Shown here: positions 2,425 to 20,039 of the stretch, one piece after another
Layout of the letters: each line of letters starts with the position of its first letter
Position numbering within the stretch: position 1 is the stretch's first letter
Assembly: GCA_020621865.1 (NCBI GenBank)
Contig: JAHRYW010000001.1
Location: 329,577-393,576 of the forward strand
Direction: 5' to 3'
Origin: Betaproteobacteria bacterium
GTDB lineage: Bacteria; Pseudomonadota; Gammaproteobacteria; Burkholderiales; Rhodocyclaceae
Length of the DNA stretch: 64,000 nucleotides
Notes under the pieces: model-generated
What the model was told of the DNA's origin: nothing
What the model saw: the letters and a program-made list of their open reading frames with translations, nothing else
Database searches by the model: none
Translations under genes and position numbers: made by a program

Positions 2425-4130
2425 ACACCGTGCTCGATGCCTGCGAACCTAGTGCTCGCTACCTCGCCGCGCTTGAACCGCCATTGCTACAGCAGTTCGA
2501 ACTGATCGCCTCAGCCCCCAACGGCGTGACGCGACTGCGCGAATTGATCCTGACGCTGGGCGTGCAGGGCAAGCTTGTGCCACAAGACCCGAATGACGAA
2601 CCGTCCAGCGTGCTGCTTGACCGTATCCGGGATGAAAAGGCGCGACTGGTCCAGGACGGCAAGATTAGGAAGGGCAAGTCACTTCAAGAGATATCAGAAG
2701 AAGGCGTATTTGAATTACCTATCGCTTGGAAATGGGCTCGGTTAGGTGATCTTGGCGACTGGGGGGCAGGAGCTACGCCACCTCGAAGTAATGGCGAGTA
2801 TTACGGGGGAGACATACCCTGGTTCAAATCTGGCGAGCTAACTGCGGATTTCATCTCTGGCGCAGAAGAGCACGTAACGCCGCTTGCTCTGAAGGAATGC
2901 TCCCTCCGTGAAAACTGCGCTGGCGATGTCTTGATAGCCATGTACGGCGCCACTATTGGCAAGGCATCAATCCTTTCTCGGCCTGCAACCACAAATCAGG
3001 CTGTCTGCGCTTGCACCCCTTATTCTGGGCTGAATAACCGCTACCTTTTGCTTCTGCTAAAAGCGCTCAAACCGTACTTCGTTAGCATTGGTGCTGGTGG
3101 AGCTCAACCAAATATCTCCAGAGAAAAAATCATCGCGACGGTTATTGGGCTGCCGCCTCTCGCCGAACAATCTCGCATCGTCGCCCGCGTCGAAGAACTG
3201 ATGGCCCTCTGCGATGCGCTGGAGGCCAAGGGCAAGCTGGGGGCCGAGCAGCATGCCCGGCTGGTCAGCAGCCTGTTCGATTCGCTGGCCAATAGCGAGT
3301 CGGCCCACGCACTAGCCGAAAACTGGCAGCGCATAGCCACTCATTTCGACCTGCTGCTCGACCGCCCTGCTGCGGTTGACGCCCTGGAACAGACCATTTT
3401 GCAACTCGCCGTCCGTGGGCTGCTCGTCCCGCAAGACCCCGCCGACGAACCAGCCAGCACTCTGCTGCAGAAAGTCCGCCAAGAAAAAGACCGCCTGATC
3501 GCCGCTGGCCAACTCAAACGCGACAAACCGCTGCCACCTATCAACGATGAGGAAAAGCCGTTTGAGTTACCTGAGGGTTGGGAGTGGACCCGTTTGGGTA
3601 CCGTCGCGGACATTGCATCAAATCTTGTTAGCCCCGAACAGCATCAAGACATGTTGCAGGTAGCTCCTGACTGTATAGAAAAAGCAACCGGTTGCTTGCT
3701 TGAACGACGCACAGTAAAAGACGCTGGTGTGACAAGCCCAAATCACAGGTTTTACCCAGGCCAGATTCTTTATTCCAAGATCCGTCCGTCACTTTCCAAA
3801 GCGGTTGTGGTTGATTTCGAGGGGCTTTGCAGTGCTGATATGTACCCCCTTAATTCTTGGATAGATACAGGCTATTTGCACCGTTATATTCTCAGCCAAC
3901 CGTTCTTAGAGCAGGTGCGAACAGCGGAAAATCGGGTAAAAATGCCAAAACTCAACCAAGAAGCATTGAATTCCTTTTTGGTTCCAGTTCCTCCTCTCGC
4001 AGAACAATCCCGTATCGTCGCCCGCCTCACCGAACTGCGCGCCCTCTGCTCCGAACTGCGCGAGCATCTCGCCGCTGCCCGGCAAACCCAATCTCAACTG
4101 GCCGAAGCCTTGGTTGAGAGCGTTTGCTGA
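2421..4130 (+). CDS. hsdS: Type I restriction-modification specificity subunit S
   Basis: DNA-recognition subunit of 569 residues with the usual internal duplication. Two target-recognition domains (about 95-260 and 395-540) are each preceded by a similar helical segment (LTLGVQGKLVPQDPNDEP and LQLAVRGLLVPQDPADEP) and followed by PPLAEQSRIVAR, which starts the conserved spacer helices. The two recognition halves have lower GC and different codon use from the conserved helices, as expected when recognition domains are exchanged between alleles. The recognition sequence cannot be predicted from this. It is the third hsd gene of the operon. Confidence 0.95.
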   Translation: MNTVLDACEPSARYLAALEPPLLQQFELIASAPNGVTRLRELILTLGVQGKLVPQDPNDEPSSVLLDRIRDEKARLVQDGKIRKGKSLQEISEEGVFELPIAWKWARLGDLGDWGAGATPPRSNGEYYGGDIPWFKSGELTADFISGAEEHVTPLALKECSLRENCAGDVLIAMYGATIGKASILSRPATTNQAVCACTPYSGLNNRYLLLLLKALKPYFVSIGAGGAQPNISREKIIATVIGLPPLAEQSRIVARVEELMALCDALEAKGKLGAEQHARLVSSLFDSLANSESAHALAENWQRIATHFDLLLDRPAAVDALEQTILQLAVRGLLVPQDPADEPASTLLQKVRQEKDRLIAAGQLKRDKPLPPINDEEKPFELPEGWEWTRLGTVADIASNLVSPEQHQDMLQVAPDCIEKATGCLLERRTVKDAGVTSPNHRFYPGQILYSKIRPSLSKAVVVDFEGLCSADMYPLNSWIDTGYLHRYILSQPFLEQVRTAENRVKMPKLNQEALNSFLVPVPPLAEQSRIVARLTELRALCSELREHLAAARQTQSQLAEALVESVC

Positions 4131-4139
4131 GGTAGCACG

Positions 4140-5138
4140 ATGGCCTATGAAAAGCCCTGGTCGAGCTATGAGGAGCAGCTCGACCTATTGATAGCGCGGG
4201 GCATGGTTGTAACAGACCGCCCCCGCGCACTCGATTACCTTGAGCGGATTGGCTATTACCGCTTAAGTGGTTACTGGTTCGCCTTCCGCGAGCGCTCTGA
4301 GCTTTGCTGCCCATTTGATCCATCAAACTTTGCAAAGCCCAAGAAGGGACGCGTTGATCGTTTGGCTCTTGATACTTTCAAGCCGGGTACGACCTTCCAA
4401 CATGCTGTCGAGTTGTATGTGTTCGACAAAAAGCTGCGGTTATTGGCGTTGGACGCACTTGAACGGATCGAAATCGCATTGCGCGTCGATATTGCGCACA
4501 CTCTTGGAAAAACTGATCGCTTTGCCTACCTGAATCCCGATTTGTTTTTTCCTGGGTTCAGCAAGACGCTGGATAAGAAGTCTGGCCTGACTAAACACCA
4601 CGAATGGTTGGGCAAACATGCGGGGCTGATTGGTCGCTCCAAGGAAGAGTTCATTCGCCACAATCGTGACAAGTACGGCTTGCCGCTGGCTATTTGGGTG
4701 GTGTGTGAGATATGGGATTTCGGCACCCTATCCACCTTATTCGCAGGGATGCGAGAGGATGATCAGGATTTGATCGCCACCCAGTATGGTGTCAGCAATG
4801 GTCGCCTGTTTGCTACTTGGTTGCGCAGCTTGAACTACTTGCGCAATGTTTGCGCTCACCATAGCCGCCTATGGAACAGAAATATTGTTGATCAGCCAAA
4901 GTTGCCGGACGTGAGTGAGGTTCCGTGGGCAGCTCCGTTTATAGGTAATTCTCACCGGCAGGCCCGTCCATTCCTACTTTTTTGTATCGCGAAACACATG
5001 CTTGACAGGATCAACCCTACGTCGAGTTGGGGCTCTCGGTTTCGAGGTTTGCTCGCGGAATTCCCTGCTCAGGCAGGCTTGAGCCTAGAGGGGATGGGTA
5101 AGCCGACAGGGGATTGGGATGCAGAACTCTGGGGCTAA
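4140..5138 (+). CDS. Abi_2 family (AbiD/AbiF-like) protein with HEPN motif
   Basis: A 332-residue protein starting MAYEKPWSSYEEQLDLLIARG, followed by LERIGYYRLSGYWFAFR, both characteristic of the Abi_2 abortive-infection family. RNVCAH at 235-240 fits the R-x4-6-H active-site motif of HEPN ribonucleases. It starts 9 nt after hsdS with GAGG upstream, so it is likely read from the hsd operon. Members of the family abort phage infection in lactococci; that role here is inferred from family and position next to a type I restriction locus. Confidence 0.85.
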   Translation: MAYEKPWSSYEEQLDLLIARGMVVTDRPRALDYLERIGYYRLSGYWFAFRERSELCCPFDPSNFAKPKKGRVDRLALDTFKPGTTFQHAVELYVFDKKLRLLALDALERIEIALRVDIAHTLGKTDRFAYLNPDLFFPGFSKTLDKKSGLTKHHEWLGKHAGLIGRSKEEFIRHNRDKYGLPLAIWVVCEIWDFGTLSTLFAGMREDDQDLIATQYGVSNGRLFATWLRSLNYLRNVCAHHSRLWNRNIVDQPKLPDVSEVPWAAPFIGNSHRQARPFLLFCIAKHMLDRINPTSSWGSRFRGLLAEFPAQAGLSLEGMGKPTGDWDAELWG

Positions 5139-5151
5139 AAACGTAGGCAAT

Positions 5152-5200
5152 AAAAAACCCCCCAGCAATCTCATCACCGAAGTGAGTCAACCGAGGGGGG
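5152..5200 (-). terminator. C6/G6 hairpin with inner UUCG loop after the abi gene
   Basis: An outer C6/G6 pair (5158-5163 with 5195-5200) encloses an inner TCAC-CGAA-GTGA stem (5174-5185). Read on the minus strand the inner loop is TTCG and the outer stem is followed by TTTTTTATT, the form of an intrinsic terminator. No minus-strand gene precedes it, so it may act on a small unannotated RNA, or simply stop transcription of the abi gene in the other direction. Confidence 0.45.
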
Positions 5201-5293
5201 CCGTGTTAGGCACAATTCTCCGGATCCTGGAAAACACTGTCAAGAAATTGATGTGAAAATTTGCTGCAAAAATTTATCAGGAAATTTTGAGCT

Positions 5294-6784
5294 ATGAAAA
5301 GCGCCCTGTTTGTCGATTTCGATAATGTTTACTCTGGCCTGCGTCGCCTCGACCAGGAAACAGCAGACCAATTTGCCCGAAATCCGGCCATATGGATGAA
5401 CTGGCTGATCAAGTCACTCGAAATGCCTGAGCCATCTGCGCCGGGGGCCAAGCGCCGAGTTCTGGTCCGGCGCTGCTACCTGAATCCGCAGGCTTACCAG
5501 CGGTTTCGCCCCTCGTTTAATCTGGCGGGCTTCGAGATCATTGATTGCCCTGCGCTGACCAGTGAGGGCAAGACCAGCACCGACATTCACATGGTGTTGG
5601 ATATCGTCGATCTGTTGCAGCACGAAACCCGTTACGACGAATTTATCGTTTTCTCGGCCGATGCTGACTTTACGCCGGTATTGCGCAAGCTTAGGCGCTG
5701 GGATCGGCGAACAACGGTACTGGCCATCGGCTTTCCTTCAGCCGCCTACCGGGCGTCTGCCGACCTCCTGATCGACCAGGACGATTTTGTCCGGAAGGCG
5801 CTCTCATTTGACGAAATAGTTGTGGTTCCTCAGCCCATTGAGGTCAGCCCGCCGCCAATCGAATGTGGGCCTGCAGCCCTAAAACTAATTCAGCAAGCAG
5901 TTAAAGAAGCTTCTGGGCCGCTTTCGTTGGCCAAGGTGGCTTCGATGTTGTTGAGCAAAATTGAGGGGCTGGACGCATCCTCATGGGCTGGATTTGGCAG
6001 CTTTCGATCACTGATTGAGTCGCTGGATATGGGCCGGCTAGTTGTGACGTGGGAGGCCGGCGGAACGATTCACGATCCCAAGCGACATGCGCTTCCTGCA
6101 AATCCTTCTCCGGCTGCTGGTAACGGCAAGATCAACGGACTCCTGCCGAAGGTCATTGAGGCAATCAAAGGTGAGGTTGCCAAAGCATCGCAACCTGTAC
6201 CCTGTGGCCGACTGGCAACCCTGATTCTTGCTCTGGACAGCTCACTTGCTGCTGATTGGGCAGGTAAGGGCAGCTTTCGAAAATTCGTCGAATCACTGAA
6301 TGTGAAACCGATTGAGTTCAATTGGAACGGCTCGGGAGGTATCGCTTTCGATTCCACTAACAACGGGTCCAGCGTTGCATCTGTTCCGGTTTTATCGGCT
6401 GAATGGGCTGATAAAAATCTCTTCAAGATTGCCAAGCAAATCCATGAGGTCACGGATGTGCCGCTGCTGCCGCCTAACAAATATCGAAATCTGCTGGCGA
6501 TGATCGCTTTAGATGTGGTCGAGTCGCAATTTCACTTGATGGAGACAGGAAAGCGGGTGCGAGATCGATGCCGAGACTCTGGTCATCCGGTAAGTCGTGC
6601 AGACGTGAATCATGTGTTGCGTGGCTTGGTGATGCGTGGTCACGTCTTTGACAATGGTCCGAATGATGCCGCGACGCTAGCCAAAAGATTGACGGACAAT
6701 ATTCGATCACTTTGCCTGAGAGAGCAGATCGTCCTTGATGGAGCTATGGACAAGGCGATCAAGGACTGGATTGGCAGTAACTAG
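5294..6784 (+). CDS. NYN-domain nuclease-like protein with LOTUS/OST-HTH-type repeats
   Basis: 496 residues. The N-terminal 170 residues form a NYN (LabA/DUF88, PIN-like) domain with acidic positions D8 and D10 in VDFDN, D97 in STDIHMVLDI, and D122/D124 in FSADADFTPVLRKLRRW, the expected catalytic set. Two related segments follow (about 195-262 and 285-355, each ending in a W-x-G-x-GSFRx-hydrophobic-ESL pattern), consistent with OST-HTH/LOTUS RNA-binding domains, then a third helical region (375-496) that may be a divergent copy. NYN proteins are usually ribonucleases; an RNA target is inferred. The gene stands alone between the hsd-abi operon and the transposon. Confidence 0.8.
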   Translation: MKSALFVDFDNVYSGLRRLDQETADQFARNPAIWMNWLIKSLEMPEPSAPGAKRRVLVRRCYLNPQAYQRFRPSFNLAGFEIIDCPALTSEGKTSTDIHMVLDIVDLLQHETRYDEFIVFSADADFTPVLRKLRRWDRRTTVLAIGFPSAAYRASADLLIDQDDFVRKALSFDEIVVVPQPIEVSPPPIECGPAALKLIQQAVKEASGPLSLAKVASMLLSKIEGLDASSWAGFGSFRSLIESLDMGRLVVTWEAGGTIHDPKRHALPANPSPAAGNGKINGLLPKVIEAIKGEVAKASQPVPCGRLATLILALDSSLAADWAGKGSFRKFVESLNVKPIEFNWNGSGGIAFDSTNNGSSVASVPVLSAEWADKNLFKIAKQIHEVTDVPLLPPNKYRNLLAMIALDVVESQFHLMETGKRVRDRCRDSGHPVSRADVNHVLRGLVMRGHVFDNGPNDAATLAKRLTDNIRSLCLREQIVLDGAMDKAIKDWIGSN

Positions 6785-6803
6785 TGAAAAGGATTGGCCA
6801 GTC

Positions 6804-6959
6804 TCACATTGCGACAAACTGCAACGAGATGCCGTTGGTTTTGACAAACTGCAATTTATTGATCGAGGTGGTCAGCAGATAGCCTAGGAAAATGCCGAGA
6901 ATTACGCCGAAAACTGCAAAGAAATGCTTCGTAGTCGATGCAAAATTATGATTCCTGTC
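6804..6959 (-). pseudogene. Possible remnant of a small membrane protein
   Basis: An open minus-strand stretch of about 51 codons encodes a hydrophobic helix (FFAVFGVILGIFLGYLLTT) and ends at a TGA at 6804-6806. It has no ATG, GTG or TTG start and an in-frame stop at 6960-6962, 10 nt from the transposon end. It may be the 3' end of a gene broken by rearrangement, or chance. Confidence 0.25.
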
Positions 6960-6970
6960 TCATGATCTGT

Positions 6971-7070
6971 TGTGCCGTTAAGCATAAAGTGTCCGCCCGG
7001 ACAGCTTATGCTTTAACTTCCGATAGGACACATTTTGCTTTATCGGAAATTTATGGCTGTCGATAGACAG
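6971..7070. repeat. Left transposon end with motif repeats
   Basis: The outermost 47 bases hold one motif copy at 6977-6995 and an inverted copy at 6998-7017, together a near-perfect 41-bp palindrome with a 2-nt centre. A third copy at 7020-7046 is itself flanked by CCGATA/TATCGG. A partial palindrome CTGTC-GATA-GACAG follows at 7057-7070. The copies at 6998 and 7020 have the same orientation as those in the right end. Confidence 0.65.
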
Positions 7071-7098
7071 TTTTCCCGGGCCTCCAAACATCTGACGT

Positions 7099-7128
7099 AA
7101 AAAAACCGGCCATATAGCCGGTTCTTTG
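7099..7128 (-). terminator. Intrinsic terminator of the tni operon
   Basis: On the minus strand AACCGGC and GCCGGTT pair around a 6-nt loop and are followed by TTTTTTT. It lies just downstream of the tniQ stop, at the end of the tni operon. Confidence 0.85.
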
Positions 7129-7147
7129 TGTCCCCGAATGCGTTCGG

Positions 7148-8485
7148 TTATTTTTCTGCTTCAGATTCGAAATCTGGCCTCATCAGGTGACTTTGTACGT
7201 CCTTGAGATTGAGGAGGAGATTGCTCAAGGGGGCCAGGATTGGGGCTGGCACACGTGCGATGACCTCACGCAGCGTTACCGCTTTTCCTTCTGCCCAAAT
7301 ATCAATGCAAGCCTGTTCGAGATGCGGCCACGCATTTACGACATGTTCATCCTGGCGCCTGCGTAGGTACTCCTTCCAGCGCTCACCGAGTTGCCGAGTG
7401 ACCATATTCACACGCAGATACAGCAGTCTTGTGTCGATGTTCAGTCTCCTCGCTGCTTCGCGCACGGTGATTGGCGTTGGCGAAGCAAGAAATTCCCTGA
7501 GTTTGCTTTCGATTTCCGCCCAGTTACGCTCACGCTTTACAGTGCGAGTTCGTGCTTTGGGTTGGGGCAGGTTCAGAACCAGCTGAGGCTCAACTTGTGG
7601 GCACACCCAGGTTGATAAATCTCCGTTCAAGAGCTGTGTCAGGCTGGCGCCACTGTGAGCGGCAATCTTCAGACTGGCCTTCAGGCTCGGTGTCCCTTCA
7701 CCCTTTAACCAATTGTGGACGGTGCTTTTGGCGACGCCAATACGTCGAGCGAAGACAGCACTTTGACCGTTGTCCATCTCCTCGATGATTTGCGAGATGG
7801 CATTGATGAGGTTGCTGCGGGTTGGTGTGCTCGCCAAATTTTGCTGAGCATGAACCAACTCATCCATTTGCCGTGCAGTCCAACGCGCAGCGCGGTTGAT
7901 AGGGGCATCATTTGTCTCGGCACCGGCTTTGCCAAGAAATTCACCACAAGAGGTGCACCAACCCGGTACGACGTAGGCGGACGCGTGGCGAATATTGTCT
8001 TTCCCGCAATGAGGGCAATATCGTTCTAGGGGGCAGCCGTGTCGTGAACAAACGGAAACCTCAGCCGACTCCCATACCAGGCGGAAATACGGAGCCTGGT
8101 TTTGTGCCAGGTCGTCGGCAAAGCAGGCAGGGCAGAATTGGCCTCGTGTCACAATGGAGAGGCCGCTTTTGGATATGACGTCTTTCCATGGCAGGAAGGT
8201 TAAGTGGTCCAGTCTTGATACGGCGGTGAGTTTCGCCAGCGCAGCCGACCAGGTTTCAGCTGACTCACAAATGCTAGCCAGTCGCCGTTGATGCCAGTCG
8301 AAGTCTGGACTGACGTTGTGTTCGATGCGTTGTGCAATCGAGCGTGAAAGCGCCAATGTGGATACCGAGTGGGATACAGCAAGCCGACAGAAGTAACTGA
8401 GCAGACTTTCAATCTCGCTGGTGCCCTCGCCAATAGGTTGAAGGGCATGCAATTCGGAGCGCGGGTTGTTGAGCACTGAATTCAT
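7148..8485 (-). CDS. tniQ: TniQ/TnsD-family transposon target-selection protein
   Basis: 445 residues. The N-terminal half carries the TniQ zinc-binding pattern: FCPAC, then CSRHGCPLERYCPHCG and WCTSCGEF. The C-terminal half has two helix-turn-helix-like regions, one reading FARRIGVAKSTVHNWLKGEG and one reading VREAARRLNIDTRLLYLR. In Tn7 and Tn5053 relatives TniQ/TnsD binds the target DNA and recruits the AAA regulator. The start overlaps the tniB stop (ATGA), so the two are translationally coupled. The gene looks intact; the target it recognises is unknown. Confidence 0.85.
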   Translation of the reverse strand: MNSVLNNPRSELHALQPIGEGTSEIESLLSYFCRLAVSHSVSTLALSRSIAQRIEHNVSPDFDWHQRRLASICESAETWSAALAKLTAVSRLDHLTFLPWKDVISKSGLSIVTRGQFCPACFADDLAQNQAPYFRLVWESAEVSVCSRHGCPLERYCPHCGKDNIRHASAYVVPGWCTSCGEFLGKAGAETNDAPINRAARWTARQMDELVHAQQNLASTPTRSNLINAISQIIEEMDNGQSAVFARRIGVAKSTVHNWLKGEGTPSLKASLKIAAHSGASLTQLLNGDLSTWVCPQVEPQLVLNLPQPKARTRTVKRERNWAEIESKLREFLASPTPITVREAARRLNIDTRLLYLRVNMVTRQLGERWKEYLRRRQDEHVVNAWPHLEQACIDIWAEGKAVTLREVIARVPAPILAPLSNLLLNLKDVQSHLMRPDFESEAEK

Positions 8486-9522
8486 GCTGCCTCCAAGGGA
8501 TTGCGCGCAAAGCCCGGCTTGATGCGGGGCAGATTCCGGGTCAGGCTTGGATTGATGGCGGCCTCACCCTCCAGAATTTCATCAAGGATTCGAGTACGCT
8601 GAGCATCGGTCATCAGGGCGCGCTCCAAGGCACTAACCGTCCATCGCCCGTCCGCTTCGGCCAACTTCGCGGCACGCATCAATACGCCGCTCAAAGTGCC
8701 GATACAACCAAGAGTGTTCTCGTGGAGTGCCTGGGCATATTGAACCAGCTGGTCTCCCCACAAATGCGGGAGTACCGACTGAAATTTCTGAACACAGGCG
8801 GTGAAAGCCAGTACATCTTCAGGGCGGTCCTGGCGGTAACGCTCGCAGTGCACGACATGAATACGACGTGCCAGTTGCCCAGAGAGTGAAACCAGCTGAT
8901 ACAGGTCGTACGAGCCCACCATGACCATCTGGGAGCATCCTTTGTTGGCCAGGGACTTCAAAGTGTCGAGCTGGATTTCGAGGCGGCTGCGACGTGTTTG
9001 CCGAATGATGTGTGCAGCTTCATCGATGACGACAAAGCGCGTATCACGCTCCTTCAGGCAGCGCTCGACCGCAGTCCGCAGACCCGCTAATCCACCAGGG
9101 CTGATTCCGCGGGGGCGGACCATTTTGCCGGTGGCTGGGTTTATCCCATAGGCCACCTTGGGGGCACTCAAGTCCTCCCCCAGTTCGGCAAGCATTTGGG
9201 TATAAAACAGGCGCCACGAGAAGTCATCTTCACCCGATGCCGGGGCCTCGACATAGACCGCAGGAATCAATCCGGCATCCGAGTTCATTTCGGGCGTGGC
9301 ACTTTCCACGGCCTTTTTGACCATGTATTCGGCCAGGGTGCTCTTGCCAACCCCGCTCGGGCCAATCACGAGCAGGATGCTGCCCTGGCTGCCAGGGTAA
9401 ATCAGCGTGTTGAGCTCATCGATGACCTGCTTGATACGTGTGTGTTTGATACGCAGTTTCAGAATGGACTCGGAGGTGGCGAGAACCGGCGTCAAGGCGG
9501 GTTGGGAAGTTTTGTGAATCAT
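8482..9522 (-). CDS. tniB: TniB/TnsC-like AAA+ ATPase of transposition
   Basis: 346 residues with Walker A VIGPSGVGKST, Walker B RFVVIDEAAHII and a sensor-like VMVGSYDLYQL. TniB/TnsC proteins form ATP-dependent filaments on target DNA and link the TniQ target selector to the transposase. An AAGGTG ribosome-binding site precedes the ATG. It lies 8 nt after the tniA remnant and overlaps tniQ by 4 nt, the usual tniA-tniB-tniQ order. The coding sequence appears intact although its partner transposase is not. Confidence 0.88.
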   Translation of the reverse strand: MIHKTSQPALTPVLATSESILKLRIKHTRIKQVIDELNTLIYPGSQGSILLVIGPSGVGKSTLAEYMVKKAVESATPEMNSDAGLIPAVYVEAPASGEDDFSWRLFYTQMLAELGEDLSAPKVAYGINPATGKMVRPRGISPGGLAGLRTAVERCLKERDTRFVVIDEAAHIIRQTRRSRLEIQLDTLKSLANKGCSQMVMVGSYDLYQLVSLSGQLARRIHVVHCERYRQDRPEDVLAFTACVQKFQSVLPHLWGDQLVQYAQALHENTLGCIGTLSGVLMRAAKLAEADGRWTVSALERALMTDAQRTRILDEILEGEAAINPSLTRNLPRIKPGFARNPLEAA

Positions 9523-9530
9523 AGGTCACC

Positions 9531-10484
9531 TTAAAAAGTGTCAAAGTCTGGAAGGGGTTGCGGTGCTGTCGCCTCAGGCAGCGAGCCGCAGGAAGGGATG
9601 GAAGGTGATGACCTGTCTTCCGCCACGGATAGGGCGGTAGCTAATGTTTCCTTGTTGAGGCTAAATTTTTTCAGTGGGGCAACGGGGTTGATGCTGCCCA
9701 CTTGCAATGTGTTGTAGAGCGATTTGTTTTCTTGTTGGCGCTCCAGTGCAGCGGCCAATGCACCCTCGGGCGTAAAGACCTGCATGAATTCCCGCAGGCG
9801 CTGGCTGGCTTGCTCATCGTTCGTGTCGGTGCCACTACGGCGGGTGTATTCCTCGGTCAGGGCACGCCGCTCAAGTTCGGTCAGCTGACCCAGACCGACC
9901 AGGTTGCGGCAGGTCGCATGCAGCCAGCGGTCCTTGAAGCGGACGTACACGGATGAGGCATCCCACGGGTCATAGCGGACGGGCAGACTTTGGCCGGCGA
10001 GGCGAGGGTCGCGGAATTCGGGGTGCCAGTACAACTGGTCATTCACCTTGACGCCACGTTGGCGGTTGACGAGGCGAACGCCGCCGCGGTCGGCCGGTGG
10101 GCAGGTCGCAATCAGGAAATCCTGGTTGAAGAGAATCTGCCGCTGCGGGCGGGCGCCACTTTCTTTCAAGCCACGCCGAAAAGCTTCTCGGGGGCTGCAA
10201 TCCATGGCTGGATGGCGCTCGTTGTCGTAATACTCGGTGGCCCAGTATTCAAGGCCAAAGTACATCGCTTCCAGTGTCCATTCCGCAAAATTCACCGGCA
10301 GATGCTTGCCGGTCACCATCCGCACGTTCTTGGTGGCTTTGGTGTTGCCGGGCAAGTTATGGACATATTCGCTATGCGCACGCCCGAACATGCGTTCGAG
10401 AACTGCGCCGTGCCGCGGCTGGCCGGCCGGCCGAAAACGCAGATGCACCGCCATTACCTGGAGGAAGGTTTCAAAAGCTGGCAT
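9531..10484 (-). pseudogene. tniA: TniA/TnsB-like transposase, N-terminal half deleted
   Basis: The remaining 317 residues begin near the end of the RNase H-like catalytic core: GQPRHGAVLERMFG contains the third acidic residue (Glu) of the DDE triad, followed by YYDNERHPAMDCSPREAFRRG and the Mu-type C-terminal beta-barrel (YWHPEFRDPRLAGQSLPVRYDP is split across 140-170). The DNA-binding domains and the first two catalytic Asp residues are missing. Homology starts abruptly at about 10484, where the frame joins a small zinc-ribbon gene. An ATG at 10484 could start translation of the fragment, but it cannot be catalytic. Confidence 0.8.
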
Positions 10485-10707
10485 GTTCGGCACGGTACTT
10501 CTGCCAGTAACCGGGATTCTTGGCCGACCAGTCTTTGAAATACAGCGCATCGCTTTCCCGCATGATTGGACTCTCGCGACGTCGCTTGGCCTGCTTGCGC
10601 CGGCGCCGCTCGTTTTGGCAGCCTGGGTTTGAGCAAAACTGCTGATTTTTCGTCTGAGGCCAGGGCGTAAATGGGTTACCGCAGGCCTTGCATTGTCTGA
10701 TTGTCAT
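10471..10707 (-). pseudogene. Small zinc-ribbon protein gene, 3' end lost
   Basis: The frame encodes MTIRQCKACGNPFTP, then FCSNPGCQNERRRRKQAKRR and a tail ending YWQKYRAEHASF. Two Cys pairs and a basic stretch resemble small Cys-rich proteins often found beside transposase genes; I cannot name the family. After YRAEH the frame runs into tniA sequence and stops within four codons, so the natural C-terminus is probably missing. The same deletion removed the N-terminal half of tniA. The 78-residue product could still be expressed. Confidence 0.55.
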
Positions 10708-10828
10708 TACATTCTCCTAATGATGAGGAGGCTGCAATGCACTACTAGCCTGGATTTCGAGCAAATGCTGGCTTAGCTCGCTTGTCGTTCATGACATACC
10801 GGATGCAAAATCCATTCTTCATCAAAAA

Positions 10829-11671
10829 ATGACAAACAGTATGGCTCGTAAAAAATCATCCGTCCTCGATGACTTGGTCGATATTGCTGCCCAGCTTCCT
10901 TGGAAGGTCGGGGTCGGATTAGCCGTTATCGCCTATTTCATCCTGCACTACTACGCGACGCGGGCTCCGCTGACGACGAACCCGGTTGAATTGAAAGCGT
11001 TGGGCAAAACGATGGGGGATTCGGTGACGCATGGGGTAGGGACCATGCTGGCCACCGTATTCCAGTACATCGTTCCATTCGCATTTTTGGTGGGCGCATT
11101 CATTTCATTCTCACGCCGGCGCCGTAAGTCCGAGCTACACACTCAAGTAGCCAATGACCCAGCAGCGGATGCGTTGGAGAAAATGAGCTGGCGAGAGTTC
11201 GAAGGTCTGGTGGCCGAAGCGTTTCGCCAGCAGGGCTATCGCGTTGTAGAACGTGGCGGAGACGGCCCAGATGGTGGTGTCGACCTCGAACTCCATATGG
11301 GCAGCGACAAGTATCTAGTGCAATGTAAGCAATGGAAGTCACAGAAGGTCGGTGTGGCCATCGTCAGGGAGCTGTATGGTGTGATGGCCGCGGAACGTGC
11401 TGTTGGCGCCTTTGTAGTGGCATCCGGAGCCTTTACCGAAGAGGCGAAGAACTTTGCCGATGGTCGGGCCATCCAGCTATTCGATGCCAAAAAGTTACGT
11501 TCCATGATTGGCCATGCTCCCAGCGCTGTGCCGGTAGCTGAAGAAACGACGCCGGCGTGCCCGAAGTGTGGCGGTGAGATGGTCCGGCGGACTGCGAAGA
11601 AGGGCAGCAACGCCGGCAATCAGTTTTGGGGATGTTCGCGCTTTCCTAGCTGTACTGGGATTAGGAGCTAG
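10829..11671 (+). CDS. Membrane-anchored Mrr-type restriction endonuclease with C-terminal zinc ribbon
   Basis: 280 residues. Two predicted membrane helices (about 25-43 and 79-97) are followed by an Mrr_cat/PD-(D/E)xK domain: E130 in FEGLVAEAF, D152 in GGDGPDGGVDLEL and Q165-x-K167 in YLVQCKQWK. The end is a topoisomerase-type zinc ribbon with C244, C247, C269 and C275. Mrr-like enzymes cut modified or foreign DNA; membrane tethering suggests action on incoming DNA, which is inference. Starts at 10829 or 10841 are both possible, neither with a clear ribosome-binding site. It is transposon cargo and precedes the DUF3644 gene by 8 nt. Confidence 0.8.
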   Translation: MTNSMARKKSSVLDDLVDIAAQLPWKVGVGLAVIAYFILHYYATRAPLTTNPVELKALGKTMGDSVTHGVGTMLATVFQYIVPFAFLVGAFISFSRRRRKSELHTQVANDPAADALEKMSWREFEGLVAEAFRQQGYRVVERGGDGPDGGVDLELHMGSDKYLVQCKQWKSQKVGVAIVRELYGVMAAERAVGAFVVASGAFTEEAKNFADGRAIQLFDAKKLRSMIGHAPSAVPVAEETTPACPKCGGEMVRRTAKKGSNAGNQFWGCSRFPSCTGIRS

Positions 11672-11679
11672 GAGTATCG

Positions 11680-12690
11680 ATGAAGCCCAGGTCTAGGAAT
11701 CTCCTGAACAAGGCAGTAGATGCGCTGATTGCAGCCATAGAAATCTACAACAAGCCTGTTTTTCAGTATCGAGAAGAAACCTTTGCGATTCTCGCCATTA
11801 ACGCTTGGGAGCTACTGGTCAAGGCGCGTTTGCTGCAATTGGCTGGAAACAAGATGGCTGCCATTTTGGAGTACGAACGCCGCAAGAAGGCCGATGGTGA
11901 ATATTCGGAAAAGGCGTACCGGCGTCGGAACAAGGCTGGCAATGTGGTAACTGTCGGCCTATTCAAGGCCATCGAGCGTCTGAATTCAAGCTATGGTGCT
12001 GCCGTCGAATTGCCAATCCGACAGAATTTGGAGGCCTTGTCGGAGATTCGGGACAATGCGGTGCATTTTGCTAACAAGGACCTGGCATTTGCTAAAGCAT
12101 TCCATGAAATTAGCTCGGCTACCGTGGCAAATTTCGTGCAGGCCGCACGTATCTGGTTCGGTGATGACCTATCCGGACAGCGCATGTTTTTAATGCCATT
12201 AGCTTTCGTCTCAGGTGTGAACACGGTGCCTGGCCTCTGCATGAATGGAGAGGAGCGTCATCTGGCGAAGTATCTTGAAGCAATCAAAGCTAACGATTCT
12301 GGCCATGATGGTGACTTTTCTGTGGCATTGACTGTTGAAGTTGCCCTGAAGCGAACCAAGGAGGGGGCTGGTAACGTCTTCAGCGTTTCTAACCATCCAT
12401 CAGCATTACCGATAAGACTGGATGAGGCTGATATACGTGAGACTTACCCTTGGGAGTACAAAAACCTGACCCAACGTCTCCGCCTGAGGTATGAAAACTT
12501 CAAGGTGAACGGTCAATACCACCAAATTCGTAAGGCACTTGAGGGCGATAGTCGTTTCTGTAGGGAACGACTACTAGACCCACTCAAGCCGGATGGCACA
12601 AAGAAAAAGTTCTACAACTCCAACATATTGCGTGAATTTGACCCTCATTACGTGAGGCGGAAACAGCCTGCGAATCCAGAAACGGCCTAA
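11680..12690 (+). CDS. DUF3644 (HEPN-like) protein
   Basis: 336 residues. The N-terminal block AIEIYNKPVFQYREETFAIL followed by AINAWELLVKARLLQLAG is the DUF3644 signature, and RDNAVH at 124-129 fits the R-x4-6-H motif of HEPN nucleases. The AGGAG ribosome-binding site overlaps the stop of the Mrr-type gene and the gap is 8 nt, so the two probably form an operon. Function is not established; HEPN-like motif, pairing with a nuclease and position on a transposon suggest a defence or toxin role. A 10-bp hairpin lies 20 nt after its stop. Confidence 0.75.
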   Translation: MKPRSRNLLNKAVDALIAAIEIYNKPVFQYREETFAILAINAWELLVKARLLQLAGNKMAAILEYERRKKADGEYSEKAYRRRNKAGNVVTVGLFKAIERLNSSYGAAVELPIRQNLEALSEIRDNAVHFANKDLAFAKAFHEISSATVANFVQAARIWFGDDLSGQRMFLMPLAFVSGVNTVPGLCMNGEERHLAKYLEAIKANDSGHDGDFSVALTVEVALKRTKEGAGNVFSVSNHPSALPIRLDEADIRETYPWEYKNLTQRLRLRYENFKVNGQYHQIRKALEGDSRFCRERLLDPLKPDGTKKKFYNSNILREFDPHYVRRKQPANPETA

Positions 12691-12710
12691 GGCCTGAGGC
12701 AAAAAGCAAG

Positions 12711-12736
12711 AAGCCCATGTCGCTGAACATGGGCTT
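12711..12736 (-). terminator. 10-bp hairpin between DUF3644 and Bax-inhibitor genes
   Basis: AAGCCCATGT and ACATGGGCTT pair perfectly around a 6-nt loop. Read on the minus strand the stem is followed by CTTGCTTTTTG, a loose T-rich tract, so it may terminate the Bax-inhibitor transcript about 260 nt after its stop. It could work in both directions. The same hairpin is present in copy B at 21676-21702. Confidence 0.5.
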
Positions 12737-12992
12737 CGTAAATCTTGAACCTTGGCGCTCATGGCCAGGGCTTGCGGCTGATTGCCGTTGGGGTGTTACT
12801 CGGTCATCTTGTCGAACTGCGGCGGATTTTCAGTCATGCTGCCTCCAATCGCGTTGTTCCTGAAGGGCCTGACCAACTGCCCGTCAGGCTTCGATTCCAG
12901 ATTACTCCTCCAGACAAAAAAGTCCACGGGTAGAACGGAAAAACGGCCCGCCAATTGGCGAGCCGTTGTGCCACCGGTCTGCATCGAGCAGG

Positions 12993-13667
12993 TTAGTCGT
13001 TGCTGGAGAATCCAAGCAGTTGCAGCACCGACAGGAAAAGGTTCAGCACGTTCAGGTACATGCTGACTGCGGCCATCACATAGTTGTCCTCTTCGCCCCG
13101 CACCAGACGGTTGGTGTCGTACAGGATGAAGCCTGAGAACAGGAGCGCTGCGACGGCCGATACGCCAGCCTGCATGGCCGGGACAAACATCGCTGCAATG
13201 CTGGCCAGGATGACGACAATCAAGCCGGCGAACAGGAAGCCGCCCATGCGGGAGAAATCCTTGCCAGTCTTATGAACATACGCCGTCAGGGCCAAGGTGA
13301 CCGCGGTGGTTATCACGGCTGCGGTCAGCACGGTGCTGCTGCCACCAGGCATGTTGATGTAGTGGGTCAGTGTCGGGCCGATACCCATACCGCTGAGGGC
13401 GGTGAAGGTGAGCATAGCTGGCACGGCTGCTGCGGTATTCCGTTTCTTGTGCAGATAGAACAGCGGCACCAGGCCGAGCAGGGTAAATACGATGCCGGCC
13501 AGCGGGCCAAAACCGGCCAGCATGCTGATACCTGCGCCTACGCCGGCAACAGCTGTTGAAAGAGCGAGCAGTTGGTAGGTATTGCGAATGACACGGTTGG
13601 TGTCGGGCGCCGCAAACGTGCCATATTCGGTTCTGCTCAGGTCGATAACACGTGCTTCAGTGCGCAT
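12993..13667 (-). CDS. Bax inhibitor-1/YccA (TMBIM) family membrane protein, copy A
   Basis: 224 residues, about seven hydrophobic helices, and the family end segment FSGFILYDTNRLVRGEEDNYVMAA with the conserved acidic positions of the channel pore region. BI-1/YccA proteins are inner-membrane proteins; E. coli YccA modulates FtsH and bacterial homologues have calcium-leak activity. GGAGGAG lies just before the ATG. It differs from copy B at seven residues (F18L, N77S, M94L, I96L, T101A, N186S and D193N, counted by eye). It lies inside the transposon boundaries, on the opposite strand to the nuclease cargo. Confidence 0.9.
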   Translation of the reverse strand: MRTEARVIDLSRTEYGTFAAPDTNRVIRNTYQLLALSTAVAGVGAGISMLAGFGPLAGIVFTLLGLVPLFYLHKKRNTAAAVPAMLTFTALSGMGIGPTLTHYINMPGGSSTVLTAAVITTAVTLALTAYVHKTGKDFSRMGGFLFAGLIVVILASIAAMFVPAMQAGVSAVAALLFSGFILYDTNRLVRGEEDNYVMAAVSMYLNVLNLFLSVLQLLGFSSND

Positions 13668-13899
13668 GGTGGAAAACTCCTCCAGTGGTTGGTGACGTCA
13701 CTGTAAGTTGTAGCTCGTTACCAAAAAATCAATACACTACTGAGTTTGTATTCGAAAAAATCGAACCAATACGAATGGCTAGCGAGTTTTTTCAGGATGC
13801 TGACCCCAATCCGCGTACTCAGCCGTTGGCCGGGGTAGAGCGCGCAGTTCTCGTGGAGAACAGGTCGAAATCTGCCTGTTTTCTAAGCCAATATTTTTT

Positions 13900-14031
13900 G
13901 GACACCTTATGCTTTATTTTCTGCCGATAGGACAGGTTATGTTTTATCAGCATGCGAGTGACTCGGCGCGGAGCCTGATGTTGCGGACAGGTTATGCCTT
14001 ATTTTCCGGTCAACTTACGGCTAACGGCACA
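13900..14031. repeat. Right transposon end with three motif repeats
   Basis: Three copies of the GGACA-N2-TTATGCTTTAT motif share one orientation: 13900-13918, 13924-13948 (preceded by CCGATA) and 13984-14003. The terminal TTACGGCTAACGGCACA at 14015-14031 is the inverted partner of the left terminus. The spacing of the copies (about 25 and 60 bp) suits an array of transposase sites. Confidence 0.65.
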
Positions 14032-14041
14032 TCTGCAAAAG

Positions 14042-14075
14042 AAAAAGCCAACCGACATCGGTTGGCTTTTTTGTT
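14042..14075. terminator. Strong intrinsic terminator outside the right transposon end
   Basis: AAAAAGCCAACCG pairs with CGGTTGGCTTTTTT around ACAT, with T-tracts on both strands, so it can terminate in both directions. It lies 10 nt outside the transposon end and 40 nt after the stop of the hsdS relic, and may be that gene's terminator. A related 40-bp sequence occurs at 21522-21561. Confidence 0.8.
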
Positions 14076-14113
14076 GTCTGGTCGGTATCTGGTCAGAGCT
14101 GGGTAAAACTCAA

Positions 14114-14230
14114 TCAAGCGGCTTCCAGCGCTGATCCGATCAGGGTGTCGGCTAGCGTGGCTTCATGCTGCCCGGCGGTAGCGAGGTCAGTTTTCAATCG
14201 GTCGCATAGAGCCATGAGTTCGCCAACTTT
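14114..14230 (-). pseudogene. Relic of an hsdS C-terminus
   Basis: The minus strand reads KVGELMALCDRLKTDL, then ATAGQHEATLADTLIGSALEAA and a stop. This is the C-terminal helix of type I specificity subunits (compare RVEELMALCDALE in the intact hsdS of this window). No recognition domain is visible upstream, where the sequence becomes AT-rich. It is evidence of a second, lost type I restriction locus next to the transposon insertion. Confidence 0.65.
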
Positions 14231-14567
14231 ACAGGCACCTGTATACCCGGGTTGTACAACAAAGCCTCTATGTCGTAATATGAGTTGTTAAAAATATCAA
14301 AAGTTATAAATTTTTATCAAAGCCGAAGTGGCCGGACAGGCGTTAGCCTGGCTTATGCGAGCTAAAGATAAATTCAGCGCGCGGCGTATTCTCGGCGTAA
14401 CGTATGGGCTGAGCCGGTTCGCTGGCGTTGATTGTGGCAAGGTGAGTCATGGCCGATGAGGGCAATTCCACGCTTATCCGTGCGAAGCAGGGATTGATAC
14501 CCAGAACTAGAATGATGAATCGCAATGCCAAGTAGCCTGCCAACATCACTGTTCTTGAATCAGGAAA
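14231..14567. other. Gap between hsdS relic and HD-GYP gene
   Basis: The first 100 bases are AT-rich and contain a TTGTACAA palindrome. A minus-strand frame at 14343-14546 would encode 67 residues starting with a secretion-signal-like MLAGYLALRFIILVLG, but there is no ribosome-binding site and I do not call it. The promoter of the HD-GYP operon should lie here; no clear -35/-10 pair was recognised. Confidence 0.4.
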
Positions 14568-15842
14568 ATGAGTAGCGATCCCACCATCGATGTCAGCGAG
14601 CTTCGGATAGGGCTCTACGTCTATCTCGACCTGCGCTGGTTCGACCACCCGTTTGCCCTCAGTCACTTCAAGATCAAGACCGAGGAGCAGATCAAGACCA
14701 TCCGTGGCCTGGGGCTTAAGCGCGTGCGCTACAGTCCGGACCTCAGCGACCAGAAGGAGCCGGACGACAGCGCACCGGCCGCCGACCAGAAGGGCGCTGA
14801 CGAGGTCAGCCCGGTGATTGCCCAGGCGCTGGCCGCCAAGAAGGCTATGATCGAGCGCATCCGCAAGCAGCGCGAAACAGCTGCGCGCATCGAGAACGCT
14901 TTTGTAGTGACGGCCACGACGATCCGCGAAATCGAAAAGAATGTGCTGACCAAGCCGGCTGAAACGCTGAAATCGGCCAATCAGCTGATCACGCAGATTT
15001 CAGACTCCATTCTCAGTGCGCCAGAATTGGCCATCCACGTCATGGGTGACATGGTTGGCGGCGAAGAGTTGTATTTCCACTCGCTCAACGTCACCATGCT
15101 CTCGCTTATGCTAGCCCGAGACCTCGGCGTGCCGCAGGAGGTCGTATCCACCCTCGGTATGGGGGCAATGTTCCACGACCTCGGGCGCTCGGAAATCCCT
15201 AGCCGCATCCTGCTCAAGATGGAGCCTCTGACCCTGGCCGAGCAGCATCTTTACGAGCAGCATTGCGACTATGGCGTGACGCTCGGCAAGAAACTGGGTT
15301 TCTCGCCCGCCGTTCTCGCCATCATCCAGCAGCATCATGAGATGTTCGACGGTTCCGGCTACCCACAGCGGCTCAAGGGGGACAGCATCAACCTGCTGGC
15401 GCGCATCGTCGGGCTGGCAAATTACTACGACGAGCTGTGCAATCCGCACAATATCGCCAATGCGCTGATGCCGCACGAAGCGCTGTCGCTCATGTTCGCC
15501 AAGCTGCGCGGCAAGTTCGACCCGCGCCTGCTGCAGTTGCTCATCCGCCGGCTCGGGGTCTATCCGCCGGGCACCGTCGTGCAATTGTCGAATGGCGCCA
15601 TGGCCATGGTGGCGACGGTCAATACAAACCATCCCATGAAACCCATCCTCATCGTGTACGACGAATCTGTCCCCCGCGATGAAGCCATCCTTATCGACCT
15701 CTCGGTCGATTCGGAACTCAACATCGCCAAGGCCATCAAGCCAGCACTGGTCCCCCAGCATATCTACGATTACCTCAGCCCACGCAAGCGGGTCAGTTAC
15801 TACTTCGACGCCAATCATGGTCAGAAGGGGGAAAGGACATGA
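14568..15842 (+). CDS. HD-GYP domain cyclic-di-GMP phosphodiesterase
   Basis: 424 residues. A DUF3391-type N-terminal region (about 5-60) precedes an HD-GYP domain with HD at 203-204 (MFHDLGR), HHE at 256-258 and DGSGYP at 261-266, the metal and substrate signature of c-di-GMP phosphodiesterases. Charged segments at 80-125 look coiled-coil. AGGAAA sits just before the ATG. The stop overlaps the start of a histidine kinase gene (ATGA), so the pair is probably a signalling operon. This is the first clearly core-type gene after the accessory region. Confidence 0.9.
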   Translation: MSSDPTIDVSELRIGLYVYLDLRWFDHPFALSHFKIKTEEQIKTIRGLGLKRVRYSPDLSDQKEPDDSAPAADQKGADEVSPVIAQALAAKKAMIERIRKQRETAARIENAFVVTATTIREIEKNVLTKPAETLKSANQLITQISDSILSAPELAIHVMGDMVGGEELYFHSLNVTMLSLMLARDLGVPQEVVSTLGMGAMFHDLGRSEIPSRILLKMEPLTLAEQHLYEQHCDYGVTLGKKLGFSPAVLAIIQQHHEMFDGSGYPQRLKGDSINLLARIVGLANYYDELCNPHNIANALMPHEALSLMFAKLRGKFDPRLLQLLIRRLGVYPPGTVVQLSNGAMAMVATVNTNHPMKPILIVYDESVPRDEAILIDLSVDSELNIAKAIKPALVPQHIYDYLSPRKRVSYYFDANHGQKGERT

Positions 15843-17533
15843 GCTTGCTGGAAAAAAAGATGCTCGATCACAGCGCCAGCATGATGCTGCTGGTCGACAC
15901 GGACGGCTTGCGCATTACCCGGGCCAATCGCCTGGCTGCACAACTGCTGGGTTACACGCCGGAGGAACTGCTCGAACATCGCATCATCGACATCGAAAGC
16001 TCGCTGCAGGACGTTTTCTACTGGGAAGACGTGGCGGCCGGCGTGTATATCGAAATCGAATGGCAGGAAGGGGTTTACCAGGGGTGCGACGGTCGGCTCA
16101 TTGAGGTGTCGAAGTCAGTGTCGCTCATCCGGCACGAAGACAAAACCTATCTGCTCGTCCAGGCGCGCGATATCCGCCAGGAACGCAAGACCGAGGAGCA
16201 ACTCGAACATACCCTGTCGCAACTGCGGGCGACGCTGGAGGCAACCGGAAACGGTCTGCTCGCCATCAACTGGCAAGGTCAGATTGTCAGCATGAACCGG
16301 ATGTTCTGCGCCATGTGGGCGATCCCCGAGGCGTTGCTGACGCAGCACCGGGACGAGGAAGTCATCATCCACGTGTCGGCCAAAGTGAGAGAGCAGGAAG
16401 CCTGTCAGGCACGCCTCAAGGCCATCGTCGACGATGCCGAAAGCGAGGAATATTTCCACCTGACCGATGGCCGGGTTTTCGAATGCAAGTCCCGACCCCA
16501 ATATCTGGGCGAGCGCATCGTCGGCCGCGTTTTCAGCTTCGCTGACGTAACCCGCCGGTTAGCTGCCGAGGAAGCTCTGCGCGAGTCGCGGGACGAACTG
16601 GAACGGCGCGTCGAGGAGCGGACGTCCGAATTGCAGGCACTCAACCGGAATTTGCAGGCCGAACGCCAGCATCAGGCGGAACTGATCATCAAGCTGGAAG
16701 AGGCGCAAAACCAGCTGATTCAGTCCGAGAAAATGGCATCCATTGGTCAGCTGGCAGCCGGCGTGGCGCATGAAATCAACAACCCAGTTGGTTTCATCAA
16801 GTCCAACCTCGGCACCCTGCAGCGTTACGTTGCCGACATCGCCAAGGTACTCAAGGCTTATTCAGCCGTTGAAAGCGAACTCGGAGAGGGCGCTCGGGCC
16901 GGCGTGAGCAAACTCAAGAACGACCTCGAACTCGATTTCCTGCAGGAAGACCTCGATGCCCTGCTCGTCGAGACAAACGCTGGCGTTCAGCGCGTGCAAG
17001 ACATCGTCCGCGACCTCAAGAACTTCTCGCATGTCGGCAGTTCGGACTTCATCTTTGCCAACCTTGAGGCGGGGCTCGATAGCACCCTCAACGTGGTATG
17101 GAACGAACTCAAGTACAAGGCCAAGGTCGTCAAGGAATACAGCGGCATTCCTGAATTGATGTGCGCGCCCTCGCAACTCAACCAGGTTTTCCTCAACCTG
17201 CTCGTCAATGCATCGCAGGCCATTGAGGAGCAGGGCCAGATCACTATCCGCACGACGAGCACGAACGATAAAGTCTGCATCGAGATCGAGGACACCGGGT
17301 GCGGTATCCCTCCAGAAAGCCTCAGCCGCATCTTCGAACCCTTTTTCACGACTAAGCCGGTCGGCAAGGGTACGGGCTTGGGCCTGTCCCTGTCATATGG
17401 GATCGTCAAGAAACATCGTGGCTGGATCGAAGTCAGCAGCGAAGTGGGTAAGGGAACACGTTTTTCAGTGATTTTGCCGCGTCATGTCGATGACGCCACC
17501 ACGGGAGAGCCCGACGTAACGGCTGTCCGGTAA
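15839..17533 (+). CDS. PAS-domain sensor histidine kinase
   Basis: 564 residues with no membrane helix, so probably cytosolic. Two PAS domains (about 8-125 and 135-245) are followed by a coiled coil (245-300), a HisKA-type domain with the phospho-accepting His at about 311 in GVAHEINNPVGFI, and an HATPase domain with QVFLNLLVNASQAI, DTGCGIP and GKGTGLGLSL. No receiver domain is attached; an adjacent response regulator is also absent, while the coupled upstream gene is an HD-GYP phosphodiesterase. The pair may connect a PAS-sensed signal to c-di-GMP turnover. Confidence 0.9.
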   Translation: MSLLEKKMLDHSASMMLLVDTDGLRITRANRLAAQLLGYTPEELLEHRIIDIESSLQDVFYWEDVAAGVYIEIEWQEGVYQGCDGRLIEVSKSVSLIRHEDKTYLLVQARDIRQERKTEEQLEHTLSQLRATLEATGNGLLAINWQGQIVSMNRMFCAMWAIPEALLTQHRDEEVIIHVSAKVREQEACQARLKAIVDDAESEEYFHLTDGRVFECKSRPQYLGERIVGRVFSFADVTRRLAAEEALRESRDELERRVEERTSELQALNRNLQAERQHQAELIIKLEEAQNQLIQSEKMASIGQLAAGVAHEINNPVGFIKSNLGTLQRYVADIAKVLKAYSAVESELGEGARAGVSKLKNDLELDFLQEDLDALLVETNAGVQRVQDIVRDLKNFSHVGSSDFIFANLEAGLDSTLNVVWNELKYKAKVVKEYSGIPELMCAPSQLNQVFLNLLVNASQAIEEQGQITIRTTSTNDKVCIEIEDTGCGIPPESLSRIFEPFFTTKPVGKGTGLGLSLSYGIVKKHRGWIEVSSEVGKGTRFSVILPRHVDDATTGEPDVTAVR

Positions 17534-17642
17534 CAGCTACGTCTGGTCAGGTTCTGGTCGCAGCGGAATCTGGACTTTTTCTTTTTCAAAAGCTCGAACA
17601 AGGTTTGTGCTGGCGATAAGTGTCTAGACCGGTAGGGGCGAT

Positions 17643-19565: not shown

Positions 19566-19871
19566 GTAATGGGTGTCGCCACGGTTAGGGCCACTTATTC
19601 TACAGCGCGCTCGGACAAGAGATGGGTCTTGCCAAACAATAGCCACATTTTCTCAACAGCGGTTAAAGTTGGGCCCCCAACCGGACGTATGAATGTCCCT
19701 GGTTCGCCGTTAATGAACTTCCGCTCCTGGCCGAATGTTCTCAGTGACGCATACGCCCCATAGCTGCCACTGGAAATTTCATGTCTTGACAAGCAGCAAT
19801 GCTAATTGAGATGCAACCTTGTGAGCGGATAAATGCCAAAAAGCCATGAAGGATTGTTGCAGGGACTGTAT
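19566..19871. other. Non-coding gap upstream of the solute-binding kinase
   Basis: About 300 bases between the kinase start and a small possible gene. I see no conserved reading frame and no hairpin of note. Promoters in both directions are expected here. Confidence 0.4.
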
Positions 19872-20039
19872 ATGCTGATACCACCGGGCAAATCGCCTAT
19901 TGAACCCGACACCCCCAACCCCAGAGATCCAATTCATCATCCCCATAAACCGGATCATCCTTTTCATGATGAGCGTGAAGAAGAAGGGCGCGAAACGGAT
20001 GATGATGAAGATACAGGGGCAGATCCTTGGTGGATGTAG
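19872..20039 (+). CDS. Small proline-rich acidic protein, hypothetical
   Basis: 55 residues starting MLIPPGKSPIEPDTPNPRDP and then rich in His, Asp and Glu, ending GADPWWM. AGGGA lies 6 nt before the ATG, a good ribosome-binding site, which is the main reason for calling it. The strongly biased composition could also be chance in an otherwise empty 660-nt stretch. No family recognised, no signal peptide, no membrane segment. Confidence 0.35.
   Translation: MLIPPGKSPIEPDTPNPRDPIHHPHKPDHPFHDEREEEGRETDDDEDTGADPWWM

Follow-up and report, generated by a model that had tools for sequence, protein, structure and literature searches.

A probable Tn7-like transposon, old and internally deleted, downstream of tRNA-Gly(CCC) in a Rhodocyclaceae genome

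A stretch of 64,000 nucleotides from a betaproteobacterial genome of the Rhodocyclaceae (C3:329577-393576, hereafter the window; genome 74.65% complete) contains at positions 6971-14031 a unit which a sequence-only reading had described as a Tn7/Tn5053-like element carrying defence genes, raising the question of what kind of element this is and how it came to its present site. The explanation favoured here, with a probability of about 0.92, is that of a Tn7-like TnsAB-TnsC-TnsD transposon homing to the 3' flank of tRNA-Gly(CCC), the window copy being old and internally deleted and a second transposon having arrived later at the same tRNA.

Boundaries and transposition genes of the 7,061-bp unit

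The 7,061-bp unit carries TGTGCCGTTA at 6971 (+ strand) and at 14031 (- strand), the inverted termini 7.06 kb apart that had been noted earlier, and is flanked by the 5-mers TCTGT on the left and TCTGC on the right, which agree at four of five positions. The motif arrays proposed for both ends were located as copies of GGNCANNTTATGCTTNA at 6994(-), 6999(+) and 7026(+) on the tniQ side and at 13900, 13930 and 13985(+) on the right. The tniQ-side terminus (6971-7045, +) and the right terminus (13900-14031, -; ending in TGTGCCGTTA read inward) each hold three transposase-site-like motifs. Taken alone, the TGTGCCGTTA terminal inverted repeat is not beyond chance: an inverted-repeat listing of the 8.1 kb around the element contained 32 inverted pairs, the TGTGCCGTTA pair ranking first and others being similar in length and complementarity. 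The termini are significant because their boundary is shared in relatives and because the insertion site is continuous in other genomes. A TniQ search of 199 family genomes produced matches at E<=0.001 in 35, 22 of them weaker than 1e-20, and in four strong loci of other genera (L061, L062, L063 and L064) tniQ-side DNA similarity begins at window 6966-6971. The terminus TGTGCCGTTAAGCATAAAGTG is common to the window and its relatives with small variants, and the flanks differ, those of the relatives proving to be tRNA or tmRNA gene 3' ends. The 5-bp duplication suspected from the imperfect flanks of the window element is perfect in three relatives (ATCTG in G069, TTCAG in G030 and TTGAG in G073), and a search for matching 5-mers at the distal ends of the named-genome loci described below gave one candidate among 31 loci (L210, AGGCC, 5,634 bp). 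The 7,061-bp unit is confirmed as a real mobile element.

Within these ends tniQ, tnsC and a tnsAB remnant run leftward, followed by genes for an Mrr-type nuclease, a DUF3644 protein and a YccA/Bax1-I protein. The tniQ gene (7148-8485, -; Pfam TniQ 1.3e-15) encodes a TnsD-like target selector of 445 residues with an HTH_3 match, and its family profile matched the solved chain 8v32_J, named 'TnsD', at 6.6e-58. The tnsC/tniB gene (8482-9522, -) encodes an AAA+ ATPase of 346 residues (Pfam TniB 3.6e-18; 8fcu_Q 'TnsC' 1.4e-43). The nearest solved proteins to the element family are 9bw1, 8fcu and 8v32, which we take to be PmcCAST.

The third gene (9531-10480, -) had been read as tniA' in a tniA'-tniB-tniQ operon; the genes are present, but by alignment 'tniA'' corresponds to the C-terminal third of a fused TnsA-TnsB, at 76% identity to residues 587-900 of L061 and with a Pfam match to Mu-transpos_C only. 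TnsAB in relatives is approximately 900 residues long, with Pfam TnsA, rve and Mu-C domains in L061 and L065; it is full-length by alignment in L137, L143, L140, L064 and L066, and the best solved match to these full-length proteins was 9bw1_M (7.8e-138). In the window only residues 587-900 are kept, the TnsA domain and catalytic core being gone. The deletion junction lies within 10476-10480, where a match to cargo of L146 stops and the match to the full-length tnsAB of L137 starts, the two overlapping by 5 bases. The adjoining segment (10476-10708, -) appears by eye to be the 5' part of a small zinc-ribbon-like cargo gene, with homologous DNA in L146 and, as far as approximately 10574, in L098. 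On this comparison the window copy has lost TnsA and the catalytic core through internal deletion and is probably not autonomous.

On the strength of the fused TnsA-TnsB, the TnsC and the TnsD-like TniQ of its relatives, the window element is assigned as Tn7-like and not Tn5053-like, so that one half of the earlier designation is retained and the other dropped. Its family shares with Tn7 the arrays of transposase sites at the ends, the 5-bp duplication, TnsA/B/C with a TnsD-like selector and insertion downstream of a conserved gene, as well as defence cargo, a Tn7 family habit according to parts of PMC8649781; it differs in having TnsA fused to TnsB and in targeting a tRNA or transfer-messenger RNA (tmRNA) gene rather than glmS. 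A Tn5053/Tn402-type transposon, having TniA without TnsA, moving replicatively with a resolvase to finish and hunting plasmid res sites, would match the order of the three genes and the Pfam names TniB and TniQ. In relatives (L061, L065), however, TnsA is fused to TnsB, the sites are at tRNA or tmRNA genes and not res sites, and no resolvase match was found among the six open reading frames (ORFs) of the window element that were scanned. Membership of Tn5053 was ruled out by the TnsA fusion and the tRNA targets, and such a transposon is a most improbable explanation of the unit. A serine-recombinase-like ORF was seen by eye in L062 (4608-5183), outside the element end.

The tRNA-Gly(CCC) site and a second transposon

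The tRNA-Gly(CCC) gene of this genome lies at C3:307352-307425, 29 kb upstream of the element. When the tRNA and the next 25 nt are joined to window 14033 onward, the resulting 148-base site is matched as one piece (at least 136 bases with no less than 84% identity) in 25 of 76 genus genomes, and the joined site puts the window insertion 29 nt past the tRNA. These uninterrupted sites indicate that the tRNA was separated from its hairpin by the insertion of C3:307451-343607 (36.2 kb). One half of the old site is found at 14032-14075, comprising TCTGC, the right duplication copy, and a terminator-like hairpin (14042-14071) which is 3' of tRNA-Gly(CCC) in uninterrupted genomes. Comparison with the same genomes identifies the other half as the remnant TGATCTGT (6963-6970), the last 5 bases of which are the left duplication copy TCTGT. 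An empty site had been expected as 6970 joined to 14032, and the right boundary held; on the left the flank consists of these 8 bp of old site preceded by the end of a second Tn7-like transposon, which lies between the tRNA and the element. The neighbouring HD-GYP gene was discarded as a guide to the empty site, relatives matching only from approximately 14539 on.

The second transposon occupies C3:307451-336538 (approximately 29.1 kb) and ends at window 6962. Its terminal repeats TGAGACTGGCACCATAATTTTGCA and TGAGACAGGAATCATAATTTTGCA gave a local alignment score of 49, whereas 300 shuffles reached at most 32; the right one, TGAGACAGGAATCATAATTTTGCA, is read on the - strand at 6939-6962 and pairs with the one at C3:307451, 25 nt 3' of tRNA-Gly(CCC). 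Its transposase has rve and Mu-C matches, and its TniQ and TnsC are 27% and 28% identical to those of the window element. It also encodes HsdR of a type I restriction-modification system, a ShosT-like protein and a UmuC-like polymerase, and its terminal repeats suggest that the genes at window 892-6784 (+) are likewise its cargo, namely HsdM (892-2424), HsdS (2421-4130), AbiD/Abi_2 (4140-5138; PADLOC AbiD 1.9e-60) and NYN (5294-6784), all with Pfam matches. Its tRNA-side end is separated from its tniQ by 12.8 kb, and a third element nested within it is possible. A relative of its TniQ was observed in G037 (L221 8046-9377), approximately 180 bp past tRNA-Ala(CGC).

The position of the second transposon, beside the tRNA, suggests that it inserted later than the window element. 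In G073 the order is reversed: beside the 3' part of the tRNA is a window-family element whose tniQ-side end is worn to 10 bases. It interrupts, with a perfect TTGAG duplication, the end of a second-type element, and the unsplit junction survives in the window's genome. The two arrangements support repeated insertion at one site.

The same tRNA invites another explanation, an integrase-type genomic island in which the TGTGCCGTTA repeats would be incidental. tRNA-Gly(CCC) is a hotspot, and partial copies of the tRNA 3' part with the hairpin are found in several genus genomes as well as at window 21466-21561; an integrase island may explain 14.1-21.5 kb. For the element itself, with no integrase among its scanned ORFs and with ends, spacing and duplications that fit Tn7-type insertion downstream of an intact tRNA, an island is very unlikely indeed.

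Further traces of insertion were observed at this site. The copy of the tRNA-Gly 3' part and hairpin at 21466-21561 is degenerate (83%) and is followed at 21668-22862 by a second yccA block (21668-22731, 89% to 12703-13765) and a decayed right end; 21466-22862 is what remains of a further insertion there. In G073 a group II intron (L145 2604-4738; Rfam RF02012 and RF00029; reverse transcriptase-like ORF by eye) splits tRNA-Gly(CCC) near nt 39 and carries inside it an intact tRNA-Gly(CCC) copy, as if a spare for the broken gene. The intron is complete in five loci (L145 in G073, L226 in G005, L227 in G037, L228 in G016 and L229 in G057) and partial in L230, L234 and L235, and L231-L233 show the tRNA only; among the literature titles listed, none concerned a group II intron with a spare tRNA-Gly copy.

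RNA gene targets in relatives

A TnsC-based scan of named genomes yielded 39 loci, mostly of Betaproteobacteria and all labelled proteobacterial save one metagenome-assembled genome named 'bacterium' only; the set overlaps genomes from the earlier searches (for example L179 = G025, L180 = G069 and L193 = G073). In 24 of the 39 a tRNA or tmRNA called by ARAGORN is followed, after 26-31 nt, by the tniQ-side end, and L061, L063 and L064 were added at a recount of distances, giving 27 loci. Seven RNA-gene targets were distinguished: tRNAs Gly-CCC, Ala-CGC, Val-CAC and Ser-UGA, a CAU tRNA, an unidentified Ralstonia tRNA, and tmRNA. The genes gph, sua5 and rlmD, which had been taken by eye for targets, were dropped after tmRNA, tRNA-Ala and tRNA-Ser were found at those sites. 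The spacers of the 27 loci have no common sequence by eye and the last 30 nt of the RNA genes retain the T-arm and CCA, which does not prove that these bases are read, since tRNAs share them anyway.

On a TniQ tree of the 39 rows with nine labels (the seven targets, 'none found' and 'unclear') 10 label changes were counted against a minimum of 8, compared with a mean of 27.3 for shuffled labels, none of 200 shuffles being as low as 10, a clustering helped by near-copies among the rows. Ala, Gly, Ser, Val and the Ralstonia tRNA required one change each, CAU two and tmRNA three. TniQ lineage follows target, and TniQ would be the reader of that target; in most of the 39 loci only one TniQ adjoins tnsC. 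Two successive tniQ-like stretches after one tnsC were observed in L192 (Paraburkholderia bryophila; 10972-12255 and 12412-13674), with no end or tRNA found, and perhaps represent a second target pathway. The 13,696-bp contig of L066/L212 is almost perfectly palindromic, tnsAB-tnsC-tniQ and tRNA-Ala being present in two mirrored copies; it is probably an assembly artefact and was counted as one locus. In L183 (12568-12599) and L213 (12521 onward) the stretch from tRNA to element holds a second, partial copy of the terminus, as if an end had been left by an earlier insertion.

A number of observations weigh against a Tn7-like transposon homing to tRNA genes. The duplication of the window element is matched at only 4/5 bases, and that of the second transposon is also imperfect (TGAT, or 4 of 5). 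There is no tRNA inside the window, and the tie of its element to tRNA-Gly comes from the joined-site match and close relatives. Neither L068, a more distant relative, nor the transposase of the second transposon gave a Pfam match for TnsA. Among the 39 loci, 12 (L192-L196, L198, L211 and L213-L217) gave no usable pair of end and target, and in L187, L189 and L200 a tRNA-like 3' end was seen by eye alone. Some ARAGORN calls were odd, including the unidentified tRNA in Ralstonia L181 and L182, CAU tRNAs of 88 nt and an atypical tmRNA tag in L201.

On the model of its family, the TnsD-like selector TniQ would recognize the tRNA gene by its 3' part and recruit the TnsC ATPase, and the TnsA-TnsB fusion would insert the element approximately 28-30 bp downstream of the tRNA with a 5-bp duplication, the tniQ end towards the tRNA and the insertion between tRNA and terminator, leaving the tRNA intact. 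The element would ferry defence-type genes. The window copy is read as an old insertion in which internal deletion left TnsC, TniQ, both ends and cargo, and a second, distantly related Tn7-like transposon would later have entered the same tRNA site, displacing the window element by 29 kb. The ends, the duplications of relatives, the spacing to tRNA or tmRNA, the continuity of the site and the deletion are read from sequence comparison; the cut-and-paste mode we infer.

Cargo, yccA and relation to known systems

The defence-type cargo named by the sequence-only reading was recovered in Pfam and PADLOC matches. The Mrr-type nuclease (10829-11671, +; Pfam Mrr_cat 3.6e-31) has a topoisomerase-type zinc ribbon and weaker PADLOC matches to ZorD, PDC-S02 and type IV models (best each 1e-11 to 8e-9), and the DUF3644 protein (11680-12690, +; Pfam 5e-44) belongs to candidate defence family PDC-S19 (PADLOC 1.8e-122). 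PDC families are candidates whose defence role is not proven, and the window cargo may function in defence. Relatives carry larger sets: the G069 element (C62 4832-33735, 28.9 kb), which occupies the site of the window element and has full-length TnsAB, the ATCTG duplication and a right flank the same as that of the window, encodes HsdM, HsdS and HsdR of type I restriction-modification, Abi_2, Wadjet JetA/JetC/JetD, PDC-S52 and yccA, and the G030 element (approximately 36 kb, at tRNA-Val, TTCAG duplication) carries Dpd/DISARM-like and HEPN-RES genes and yccA.

The YccA/Bax1-I membrane protein gene (12993-13667, -; Pfam 1.9e-48), an addition to the earlier gene list, has its start codon 364 bp from the right terminus; PADLOC gave no match for the YccA or NYN proteins. 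Near full-length yccA matches at 85% or above were present in 17 of the 76 genus genomes (19 copies), and this patchy distribution in differing contexts excluded yccA as a host target gene. A transposon terminus was detected upstream of 11 of 20 copies examined and not of the other nine; terminus variants for this count were chosen after reading the terminus data. The distance to the start codon was 364 bp in five copies, 333-382 bp in five and 1,710 bp in the remaining copy, in which a transposase-like ORF intervenes. The ten close copies divide between two types of end. One is the G030 type; TnsC of G030 is 52% identical to that of the window. YccA of E. coli is linked to FtsH, and a role of the element's YccA through FtsH would be a guess.

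These copies bear on whether the window element is a working non-autonomous element, moved in trans by TnsAB encoded elsewhere. Both ends are present, tnsC and tniQ are open and complete, and the helper may be missing from an incomplete assembly; moreover, in G001, G036, G053, G064 and G074 the right end and yccA occur without a close tnsC, which fits copies that are either decayed or non-autonomous. Close tnsC was found among the 76 genomes in G000, G025, G069 and G073 only, with copies at 50-52% in G030 and G075. Against such an element, a TnsC search of the window's own genome found, besides its own, only the 28% homologue of the second transposon and one weak match, and decay of the duplication has begun. 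A working element is unlikely, though well short of implausible, beside the old, deleted insertion preferred here.

The general kind of element is already known. It resembles the type I-B2/I-D branch of transposons associated with CRISPR (clustered regularly interspaced short palindromic repeats), for example Tn7744/PmcCAST and CyCAST, in its fused TnsAB, TnsC and TnsD-like TniQ. Portions of PMC10293859 and PMC11406308 describe that branch as having fused TnsAB, tRNA-targeting TnsD in type I-B2 and I-D elements, and unstudied non-CRISPR targeting systems. The homing site of CyCAST is 30-33 nt beyond tRNA-Leu according to sections of PMC10293859, against 26-31 nt past tRNA or tmRNA in the family of the window element, and Tn7-like elements, according to parts of PMC8649781, bear numerous defence systems and seem to be inserted 3' of tRNAs. 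The window family differs in being betaproteobacterial, in its other tRNA and tmRNA targets and in the outcome of the CRISPR scans made: a crude exact-repeat scan for arrays was negative in window 1-20000, L137, L138, L140, L141, L142 and L054, and no Cas family was found among the proteins scanned, a subset of ORFs. Among the literature titles listed, none dealt with tmRNA as a TniQ target or with YccA in Tn7-like elements, which is weak evidence of novelty. It is tentatively suggested, with rather less than even confidence, that this is a CRISPR-free betaproteobacterial transposon family whose TniQ radiated into a code reading at least seven tRNA or tmRNA targets, each with its own TniQ sublineage or sublineages, and in which a YccA-like protein functions as a fixed component of the right end in two divergent sublineages.

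The relatives provide a natural series of TniQ/TnsD proteins whose matched tRNA and tmRNA genes differ while the offset is almost constant. With this series the rules by which protein-guided homing recognizes a target can be tested directly, and it is possibly useful for targeted insertion. They also illustrate the growth of defence islands, two Tn7-like transposons being stacked at one tRNA in opposite orders, with the second transposon beside the tRNA in the window's genome and the family of the window element beside it in G073.

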